IMG/VR virus record: IMGVR_UViG_3300035698_000975
Span: 1 to 26,706 of that record
Length of the DNA stretch: 26,706 bases
Source of the DNA: a virus
Direction: 5' to 3' (one strand)
The position numbers were made by a program, and so were the translations under genes. Each line of letters starts with the position of its first letter. Position 1 is the first letter of the stretch. Positions 3,315 through 6,654 of this stretch are shown piece by piece. The notes under the pieces are model-generated. The model was not told where the DNA came from and searched no databases. It worked only from the letters and a program-made list of their open reading frames with translations.

Positions 3315-3751
3315 TGGAGGAAAGGATACACTACGTATACATGCACACTGATCCAGCTAGTGACGACCTTTTGTATGTAGGTCATGGCTGTAGGGGGAGA
3401 TCTTGGACATCTCTAAGTCATAGTGAAGACCACACATTCCATCTAGAAATGATGACCAAGGCGGGATACACCGCAGATGACTGGGTGTCTATTGTGGAGG
3501 CAGGGTTAACTAAGCGAGCGGCTTGTGATATAGAGAGACATCTTATAGACGATCTACATCCTATGTATAATAAGGTCCAAGGGTTTAAGTTACTTAAGCT
3601 TACTCCGAAGGACTTGACTTTGGCTATGGAGCTTAGAGATACAGGAATGTCATACCAGAGCATAGCTAAACAGTTTGACGTATTTACTATGGTAGTATGG
3701 CGGGCTCTTACAGGGAACACTAAAAGTATGGGATTAAACTATGCAAGATAA
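3314..3751 (+). CDS. GIY-YIG-type endonuclease with C-terminal helix-turn-helix
   Basis: A 145-residue protein. Its N-terminal half has a GIY-YIG-like pattern: HYVYMHTDP, then LYVGHG-x-GR, and the later CDIERHLIDDLHPMYN segment carrying the metal-binding glutamate and terminal asparagine. The C-terminal part (about 98-140, MELRDTGMSYQSIAKQFDV-x-VVWRALTG) is a helix-turn-helix that could give site specificity. Proteins like this are usually free-standing homing endonucleases. It overlaps the start of nrdJ by 11 bases, matching the habit of homing nucleases of sitting in or beside phage reductase genes. GGAGG sits five bases before the ATG. Confidence 0.72.
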   Translation: MEERIHYVYMHTDPASDDLLYVGHGCRGRSWTSLSHSEDHTFHLEMMTKAGYTADDWVSIVEAGLTKRAACDIERHLIDDLHPMYNKVQGFKLLKLTPKDLTLAMELRDTGMSYQSIAKQFDVFTMVVWRALTGNTKSMGLNYAR

Positions 3752-5678
3752 GAGCGGACTTCCTACAGAGTTCCAGTCCTTTATACACAAGAGTAGATAC
3801 GCAAGATACCTCTGGGAAGCGGGACGAAGAGAGACATGGGATGAGACAGTGGATCGCTACCTGTCTTACATGGTCAACCGTGCTGAGTTTAGGCATGGGT
3901 GGGCTATGCCCGAGCCTCTATACAACGAGCTAAGGGATGCCATCTACAACCTAGAGGTTATGCCCTCTATGCGAGCTATGATGACAGCGGGGCCTGCTCT
4001 AGATAAGGAGAACATAGCCGGGTACAACTGTGCCTATGTAGCTATTGATGATGTACGTGCCTTTGATGAGATACTGTACGTCCTTATGAACGGTACAGGG
4101 GTGGGGTACTCTGTTGAGAGACAGCATATCCAGAAGCTTCCCGATGTACCTGAGATACTTACTGATCACCCTGCTGTTATAACAGTAGTAGATAGTAAGG
4201 AGGGCTGGGCCATAGGTATGGGGACTCTGCTTGAGTTCTTATACGGGGGCATCATCCCTGAATGGGATACGTCCAAGGTACGTGAAGCAGGTGCCCCACT
4301 CAAGACCTTCGGAGGAAGGGCCTCTGGTCCCGGTCCCCTTGAGGAGCTATTCAAATACACTGTAGCTATGTTCAAGGCAGCAGGGGGGCGTAAGCTCACC
4401 TCTCTCGAATGCTCCGACCTCGTGTGTAAGATTGCAGAGATCGTAGTAGTAGGGGGTGTGAGACGCAGTGCTCTCATCTGTCTGTCCAATGTATCTGATG
4501 ACCGTATGCGTCATGCTAAGAGCGGTCAGTGGTGGGAGAACGAGGGGCAGCGTGCCCTAGCCAACGTCTCCGCTGTGTACACAGACAAGCCTGACATAGG
4601 TGTGTTCATGACAGAGTGGCAAGCTCTCTACGACAGTAAGAGTGGGGAGCGTGGTATCTTCAATAGGCAGGCTGCTATTTCTAAGGTGAAGGAGAACGGG
4701 AGAAGGGATGCTGACTACGACTTCGGTACCAACCCCTGCTCTGAGATCATCCTTAGATCTATGCAGCTATGTAACCTGACTGAGGCTGTGATTAGAGCAG
4801 ACGATACTGCCCCTGATATCAAGAGGAAGGTTAGGCTCGCTACTATCCTAGGTACGTTGCAGTCCACTCTGACAGACTTCAACTATGTCCGTAGAGAGTG
4901 GCGGAACAACTGCGAAGAGGAGCGACTACTCGGGGTTAGCCTTACAGGCATAATGGATAACTGGATGACCTCGGACTACTCTAATTCCGATCTTCCCTAC
5001 ATGTTAGAAGATCTCCGTGGTGTGTCTATAGGCACTAACATGGAGTTTGCATACCTTCTAGGCATTGAACATTCAACAGCTATCACTTGCGTTAAGCCCT
5101 CCGGTACTGTATCACAATTGGTAAACAGTGCATCAGGTATTCATGCGAGGCATAGCCCATATTACATCCGTACTGTACGGGGGGATAAGAAAGACCCACT
5201 GTCCAGCATGATGGCAGACATGGGGTTCCCTGTTGAGGATGACGTTACCAAGCCTGAGCATAACCATGTGTTCTCGTTTCCGGTCAAGGCTCCTGAAGGC
5301 TCTATCCTTCGAGAGGAACGTAGTGCTGTAGAGCAGCTCCAGCTATGGCTGATCTATCAGAGGCACTGGTGTGAGCACAAGCCTTCTGTAACTATAAGCG
5401 TTAGAGAAGAGGAGTGGCTAGAGGTAGGGGCGTGGGTGTATGGGCATTTCGATGAGATGTCTGGTGTATCCTTCCTCCCCTACTCCGATCACACTTATGC
5501 TCAAGCTCCATACCAGGAGTGTACTAAGGAAGAGTATGAGGAGTTGTTAAAAAGAATGCCAGTCTCAGTTGATTGGGCTGAGCTGGCTAAGTACGAAGAT
5601 ACTGATCGTACGACAGGATCACAAGAGGTTGCCTGTGTAGGCGGCGTCTGTGAGATTGTAGACGTAGGTACTGTTTAA
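3741..5678 (+). CDS. nrdJ: Adenosylcobalamin-dependent (class II) ribonucleotide reductase
   Basis: A 645-residue monomeric class II reductase that makes deoxyribonucleotides using a cobalamin-generated thiyl radical. The residues match the Lactobacillus leichmannii enzyme pattern: C97 in YNCAYVAIDD and C344 in MQLCNLTEAV as the reducible pair, C333 in NPCSEI as the radical cysteine with N331 and E335, and the same spacing of 11 between C333 and C344. The C-terminal redox pair is C632-x4-C637 (ACVGGVC). All are intact and no intron or inserted nuclease is seen. The enzyme works with or without oxygen but needs B12 from the host. It is the last gene before a strong terminator. Confidence 0.93.
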   Translation: MQDKSGLPTEFQSFIHKSRYARYLWEAGRRETWDETVDRYLSYMVNRAEFRHGWAMPEPLYNELRDAIYNLEVMPSMRAMMTAGPALDKENIAGYNCAYVAIDDVRAFDEILYVLMNGTGVGYSVERQHIQKLPDVPEILTDHPAVITVVDSKEGWAIGMGTLLEFLYGGIIPEWDTSKVREAGAPLKTFGGRASGPGPLEELFKYTVAMFKAAGGRKLTSLECSDLVCKIAEIVVVGGVRRSALICLSNVSDDRMRHAKSGQWWENEGQRALANVSAVYTDKPDIGVFMTEWQALYDSKSGERGIFNRQAAISKVKENGRRDADYDFGTNPCSEIILRSMQLCNLTEAVIRADDTAPDIKRKVRLATILGTLQSTLTDFNYVRREWRNNCEEERLLGVSLTGIMDNWMTSDYSNSDLPYMLEDLRGVSIGTNMEFAYLLGIEHSTAITCVKPSGTVSQLVNSASGIHARHSPYYIRTVRGDKKDPLSSMMADMGFPVEDDVTKPEHNHVFSFPVKAPEGSILREERSAVEQLQLWLIYQRHWCEHKPSVTISVREEEWLEVGAWVYGHFDEMSGVSFLPYSDHTYAQAPYQECTKEEYEELLKRMPVSVDWAELAKYEDTDRTTGSQEVACVGGVCEIVDVGTV

Positions 5679-5681
5679 CAT

Positions 5682-5716
5682 AAGGGGGCTCTCTTCGGAG
5701 GGTCCCCTTTCTTATT
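5682..5716 (+). terminator. Rho-independent-like terminator after nrdJ (UUCG loop)
   Basis: A 12-bp stem (5682-5693 with 5698-5709, including two G-T pairs) closed by a TTCG tetraloop, four bases after the nrdJ stop. It is followed by TCTTATT, a short imperfect T-rich tail, on the + strand only. This is a strong hairpin that should end or reduce rightward transcription after nrdJ. The small genes beyond it would need read-through or another promoter. Confidence 0.8.
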
Positions 5717-5727
5717 GGAGAAATACA

Positions 5728-5763
5728 ATGGGCGATATGGCAGAGATGGACGCACTCAACTGA
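5728..5763 (+). CDS. Possible 11-codon peptide ORF, or the start of a broken gene
   Basis: ATG 5728 has a good GGAG seven bases upstream, but the frame stops at TGA 5761-5763 after MGDMAEMDALN. Skipping one base at the TGA would continue as ERIDTIEG to TAG 5786-5788, just before the next ATG at 5791, giving an amphipathic 19-residue peptide. It may be a leader peptide, a frameshifted mini-gene or chance. Evidence is weak apart from the ribosome binding site. Confidence 0.25.
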   Translation: MGDMAEMDALN

Positions 5764-5790
5764 GCGCATCGACACGATAGAGGGATAGGT

Positions 5791-6043
5791 ATGAGAGTAG
5801 AGGGGGGGATACGAGCGAACATACGAGTACACACCCTACCGTGTACCGAGGCCTTACAGAAGAACACGTCCTAAGAATGGGCCTCGTGTTCAGACGAGGA
5901 AGCAGTGTAATAGCTGCGGAGAGAAGAATCTCAATTGGGTGAACAAGGGAGGTAAGTGGAGATTATACTTTAACGGACAGGAGCATAAGTGTAAAGGTAG
6001 CCCTAGTCCTGTCAACTTTAGGAATGTAGGAGGAAAGAGATGA
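5791..6043 (+). CDS. Zinc-ribbon small protein, reading frame broken at a G7 tract
   Basis: From ATG 5791 (AGAGGG about 7 bases upstream) the frame reads MRVEG, meets seven Gs at 5802-5808, and as written stops at 5872-5874. Moving +1 at the G run (as if it had six Gs) opens an 83-residue protein ending at TGA 6041-6043. It is basic, with a zinc-binding C-terminal part (CNSCGEKNLNW ... GQEHKCKG, CxxC plus HxC), a layout common in small phage proteins. The +1 frame has no ATG, GTG or TTG start of its own, and its stop overlaps the next gene's ATG in ATGA, arguing that the fused frame is the real gene. It may bind nucleic acid. Confidence 0.6.
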
Positions 6044-6238
6044 AGAAGTATACATACGAACATAGCGAAGTAGAACCCGGTACCTATATAGTATTTGATC
6101 CTAACAACTGGGTACTTGAGGATTATTATGGTAATGTAGAGATGTTCAGCTCCAGGGATTCTGTTGAGGAGTACGTTAGTAGGGCTAATGAGCTGCTGAT
6201 GGAGCGTAGAAACACGAAAACCCCTTTAGGAATGTAGG
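6016..6238 (+). repeat. 15-nt direct repeat (6016-6030 and 6224-6238)
   Basis: CTTTAGGAATGTAGG occurs at 6016-6030 and again at 6224-6238, both just ahead of a start codon (ATG 6040 and ATG 6242) but in different reading frames. It supplies part of the ribosome binding region. The copies flank the 6040 gene and fit a tandem duplication that produced the two similar small genes. Confidence 0.7.
6040..6237 (+). CDS. Small hypothetical protein (65 aa), alpha/beta
   Basis: A textbook AGGAGG (6028-6033) lies six bases before ATG 6040, which overlaps the stop of the zinc-ribbon frame. The product has a strand-rich first half (TYIVFDPNNWVLEDYYG) and a helix (SRDSVEEYVSRANELLMER). The pattern 'strand, DxxG, strand, S/T-R-x-x-x-EEYV helix' recurs in the next ORF, so the two look like tandem paralogues. 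No catalytic motif was recognised. Function unknown. Confidence 0.7.
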   Translation: MKKYTYEHSEVEPGTYIVFDPNNWVLEDYYGNVEMFSSRDSVEEYVSRANELLMERRNTKTPLGM

Positions 6239-6241
6239 GTA

Positions 6242-6420
6242 ATGGAATACACGATACACAAGGGGGTGAGACAGTGGTATGTAAGAGATGAATGGGGGGG
6301 TACAACGTAGCAATAGGAGATGATGGTACCACGATGTACGATACTAGAGAAGAGGCAGAGCGGTTTGTAGAGATGTCAAATAATAGATCTATCTACATCG
6401 AACCAGATACGGTCATCTGA
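6242..6420 (+). CDS. Probable paralogue of the preceding gene, reading frame broken at a second G7 tract
   Basis: ATG 6242 opens MEYTIHKGVRQWYVRDEWGG, but after seven Gs (6294-6300) the frame hits TAG at 6308-6310. A -1 shift on the run (GGG GGG T) continues as YNVAIGDDGTTMYDTREEAE... to TGA 6418-6420, about 59 residues in all. The fused product resembles the 6040-6237 protein (strand, DG turn, then a T/S-R-x-x-AE helix). Alternatively ATG 6292, which overlaps the G run, could start the second part alone (42 residues). The last 45 bases overlap the end of the leftward nuclease gene. Confidence 0.5.
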
Positions 6421-6654
6421 TACGTTAAGCTTTCTAACACCTATCTCTACCTGTTCATCCTTTATCGGAGGCCCGCATCTGTTCCCTTTTTGAAACTTTA
6501 CATCTATTAGAACAGTTTCACCTGTATGGGGGTCTAATGCAATGATATCAACTGGCCCTGTGCAGCCCAAGTTTCGGAACACTTCGTAACCTTGCTTCAT
6601 TAACCACAGGGCTGCTTTGATCTCTGTGTAATCGCCTAGTCTATTACTATTCAT
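6376..6654 (-). CDS. PD-(D/E)XK nuclease, Holliday-resolvase/homing-endonuclease-like
   Basis: A 92-residue protein with the core of a PD-(D/E)XK enzyme: E11 in the first helix (RLGDYTEIKAALWLMKQGY), D36 in GPVDIIALD and D51-x-K53 in VLIDVKFQ. This matches small archaeal-type resolvases and the PDDEXK_5 homing-endonuclease group; substrate (branched DNA or a specific site) cannot be told. It is the last gene of the leftward unit, 140 bases after the tail fibre, and its end overlaps the last rightward ORF by 45 bases. Its ribosome binding site is inside a hairpin, which suggests controlled translation. Confidence 0.78.
   Translation of the reverse strand: MNSNRLGDYTEIKAALWLMKQGYEVFRNLGCTGPVDIIALDPHTGETVLIDVKFQKGNRCGPPIKDEQVEIGVRKLNVSDDRIWFDVDRSII

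Follow-up and report, generated by a model that had tools for sequence, protein, structure and literature searches.

The window, by which we mean the whole stretch of DNA that was analysed, comprises 26,706 bases and represents an IMG/VR virus record; its reductase, portal, terminase and other large genes are full length. A small zinc-ribbon locus has the ribonucleotide reductase gene on its 5' side and the convergent late genes on the other (Table 1). The reductase gene is followed by a probable terminator, a strong hairpin that folds at -21.6 kcal/mol (z -3.75). Beyond it, a mini-ORF (5729-5788) follows a good Shine-Dalgarno-like GGAG and reads MGDMAEMDALN up to a TGA stop, and its +1 frame goes on as ERIDTIEG to a TAG just 5' of ATG 5791; this very short stretch is possibly a third frame break besides the two described below, one that does not lie at a homopolymer. 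A protein of 92 aa is encoded at 6376-6654 on the minus strand, in convergent orientation to the small ORFs; Pfam assigns it to the UPF0102/PD-(D/E)XK nuclease type (E 8.9e-6). Further upstream, a 40-aa ORF at 1044-1168 (MKILLLDTELTWAAGFWPY...) starts similarly to the next gene, an exonuclease (MKILLLDIETAPN...), and is perhaps a duplication remnant.

Table 1. Features of the window at and around the interrupted zinc-ribbon gene
Feature	Position	Strand	Details
Early genes		+	HNH endonuclease, exonuclease, ribonucleotide reductase, others
DUF3310-like, holin-like and peptidase-like genes		+	Assigned by reading of the sequence
Ribonucleotide reductase	3741-5678	+	Stop 5676-5678
Hairpin	5682-5709 (about)	+	Strong; 4-base loop, then T-rich stretch; 3' of reductase stop
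Zero-frame ORF	5791-5871	+	ATG 5791; 27 codons; MRVEGGIRANIRVHTLPCTEALQKNTS; stop TAA 5869-5871; no recognised domain
First G7 run	5802-5808	+	Gene leaves frame here
Open stretch in +1 frame	5801-6043	+	Zinc-ribbon protein CNSCGEKNLNWVNKGGKWRLYFNGQEHKC; TGA 6041-6043
Next ORF	6040-6237	+	65 aa; ATG 6040; ATGA overlap with zinc-ribbon frame
ORF cut short soon after second G7	6242-6310	+	ATG 6242; MEYTIHKGVRQWYVRDEWGGTT; ends 6308-6310
Second G7 run	6294-6300	+	Only other G7 of the window; at apparent frame break, opposite direction
Continuation of second broken ORF	6292-6422	+	-1 frame; own in-frame ATG 6292
Late genes		-	Include portal and terminase

Translation from ATG 5791 gives MRVEG before the frame is lost at a run of seven Gs (G7), and joining these first five codons to the +1 frame yields a protein of 83 residues with a CxxC...HxC pattern, whose stop overlaps the start of the following ORF. 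Both points had been made in the earlier note, and the sequence and its translations bear them out exactly. The same note had stated that the downstream part has no standard start codon ahead of its CxxC motif; a scan of the +1 frame back to the upstream stop agreed and found no CTG or ATN codon either, in addition to the absence of ATG, GTG and TTG. The only start-like codon in this frame, GTG 5939, is located 3' of the motif. Codon-usage scoring was weak and did not clearly separate the frames of so short a gene, and no mutual similarity was detectable between the neighbouring small ORFs.

Searches of viral contigs, bacterial genomes, phages and plasmids did not recover a close copy of the locus, nor did searches of the nearest phages by reductase or by terminase, the latter (L003 and L004, 84% identity) being short fragments with late genes. 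The single viral contig that the protein search picked up (L001) matched by chance, within a DNA glycosylase/polymerase-like region, and a DNA scan with a degenerate zinc motif returned five loci, none of which matched the zinc-ribbon profile. The zinc-ribbon protein had no match in Pfam and only weak ones in PHROGs (E about 0.05). A tblastn search of phage records gave one weak, well patterned match in MW202455.1 (E 3), and starting from its protein we reached relatives in phages of Bordetella, Curvibacter and Aeromonas. These share with the window protein the zinc-ribbon family core C-x2-C ... W ... L ... H-x-C, the invariant alignment positions being C34, C37, W44, L53, H60 and C62. We built a profile from five proteins of other phages, using their motif region and leaving out the window's own protein, and ran it against the 729 stretches from all six frames of the window: the stretch 5801-6040 matched at E 1.8e-9, a value that is somewhat optimistic because the profile members were reached by chained searches starting from the window protein, and the next best stretch scored 0.22. 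So large a gap shows that the shifted frame encodes a genuine domain. These independent homologues support the claim of the earlier note that the fused frame is a real gene. The window copy differs from a continuous ORF with an in-frame start in that its frame is broken at the G7, which bears on the intactness of the assembled copy and not on the ancestry of the domain. No homologue was found for the N-terminal 30 residues, and MRVEG is joined to the zinc part because of its position and because there is no other start.

In each of the seven relatives found, an ordinary ATG starts the frame of the zinc motif, and the longest G or C run is at most four. The seven include two viral contigs carrying the same protein sequence, and all are distant. 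An arrangement in two frames is thus not a trait of the family; the conserved slip site and paired frames are missing from 7/7 of these single-frame relatives, from which the family is judged not to use frameshifting. The earlier note had named relatives with a separately started zinc-ribbon gene as a finding that would overturn its reading; continuous, ordinarily started relatives do exist, but at a distance, and this locus itself has no copy among them. Three relatives adjoin DNA metabolism genes (DNA polymerase, exonuclease and polynucleotide kinase), and the window gene comes after that for ribonucleotide reductase. With its ligand residues present, the protein is predicted to bind zinc, and its motif and the neighbours of its relatives suggest that its likeliest role would be that of a small nucleic-acid-binding accessory of early DNA or nucleic-acid metabolism.

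An apparent second frame break, which is not in the earlier note, lies at the one other G7 run in the window. Here the -1-frame continuation to 6422 scores as coding and the alternatives do not. This break is less certain because the continuation has its own ATG and may be separately started; no clear relative of this second broken ORF (6242-6422) was found. The number of G7 runs in the window is in itself not improbable (two seen vs 2.81 expected from dinucleotide content). However, the match of the shifted frame to the domain and the position of both G7 runs at frame breaks are beyond chance. All five G6 or C6 runs of the window lie inside intact frames, and in 1.3 Mb of other phage loci an open frame of 300 nt or more ran across 9/9 distinct G7 or C7 runs, a loose control in which an open frame in any of the six frames counted. 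The two breaks of the window would need opposite shifts.

With a probability of roughly 0.8, we conclude that one gene of about 83 codons has been interrupted by a changed length of its G run, either through a sequencing or assembly error or as a slippage allele. A single small phage gene would start at ATG 5791 and encode the zinc-ribbon protein, its stop overlapping the start of the 65-aa ORF; a change in the G run would then have interrupted the frame, in the data or in the sampled phage, and an event of the same kind probably affects the next G7. We infer the change in run length as the cause, and data error and replication slippage would each account for both G7 breaks. Between the two, a homopolymer length error at 5802-5808 falls a little short of even odds, and a genuine slippage allele, whether or not it is fixed, is a tentative choice somewhat behind it. 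If the data were Illumina, a miscall of G7 would be unlikely, and the odds would move towards a real allele or a functional shift. The break is most likely an ordinary event and not a new control mechanism.

Several other explanations have to be weighed against this one. The earlier note had put forward programmed frameshifting, on/off switching and a one-base data error; a change in run length, by error or slippage, is the part that we favour, and programmed frameshifting is disfavoured, because the relatives start normally in frame and the second G7 needs the opposite shift, so that two different events would have to stand side by side. In programmed +1 frameshifting, the P-site glycine tRNA would move by one base, from GGG to the GGA that precedes ATA, so that the seven-G template yields the 83-aa protein. 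The sequence GGG GGG ATA does permit such re-pairing, and two stable hairpins start 18 nt downstream (-21.6 kcal/mol, z -2.41), but stimulatory structures are usually closer to the slip site than this. Furthermore, the arrangement was seen in 0/7 relatives, ATA is not rare in the phage's own usage (13.9 per thousand), and the site lacks a stop codon of the prfB kind with its internal Shine-Dalgarno sequence; we regard this explanation as very unlikely. A little less probable again is on/off switching, in which the run would be a hypermutable contingency tract, with in-frame and out-of-frame versions in the population under selection. It is favoured by the closeness of two G7 runs that both coincide with ORF breaks, and in Campylobacter contingency tracts are searched for from seven Gs upwards; however, seven is also the bottom of the tract range there, switching having been demonstrated for tracts of at least eight and most tracts being nine or ten (PMC6321876). 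Moreover, no homologue keeps a G run, and a small zinc-ribbon gene is atypical of contingency loci, which as a rule serve surface or host-range functions. The broader proposition that two neighbouring small genes are under G-run control, through ribosomal slippage or slipped-strand switching, with their products made only by some of the ribosomes or in some of the infections, strikes us as quite unlikely.

Alternatively, the segment from the reductase to the late genes may be losing function, with neither broken ORF under selection now. This overlaps the slippage-allele half of our preferred explanation and adds that the genes are dead. Two frame interruptions in 600 bases, perhaps three with the mini-ORF at 5729, would fit such decay; no others were noticed in the rest of the window. 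Past the break, however, zinc ligands and core residues have remained intact, as has the ATGA overlap, and thus any decay must be very recent; we regard it as unlikely. As for a separate zinc-ribbon gene with an unrecognised start, the G-rich stretch might conceivably serve as its ribosome binding site, but the lack of any in-frame start codon before CxxC makes this extremely improbable.

To conclude, the zinc-ribbon gene is real and ordinary, and its break is probably an artefact or a slippage allele. The annotation should be corrected to one zinc-ribbon gene, flagged as frame-disrupted, which replaces the 27-aa ORF with the gap after it, and the contig's two G7 runs should be treated as suspect. 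A break that was real and conserved would represent an unusual role for a short G tract in an early gene of a phage. The closest likeness is to small phage zinc-ribbon proteins such as XRL27759.1 (Bordetella phage vB_BbrP_003), UZZ64535.1 (Curvibacter phage PCA1), QOI69656.1 (Aeromonas phage BUCT551) and an unannotated ORF of MW202455.1, which share the core and the small size of the window protein and several of which sit among DNA-metabolism genes; unlike the window gene they are uninterrupted, start at an in-frame ATG and lack long G runs, and the basic/aromatic N-terminal arm is the window protein's own. Like the programmed frameshift genes of phages (tail assembly chaperones and capsid extensions), the locus has overlapping frames at a one-base run, but it belongs to another gene class and its relatives have no conserved arrangement in two frames. 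Like the poly-G contingency loci of Campylobacter, it has a run of at least seven Gs inside an ORF and is seen in an off-frame state, whereas its run is the shortest in their range and its gene class an unlikely one for such a locus.
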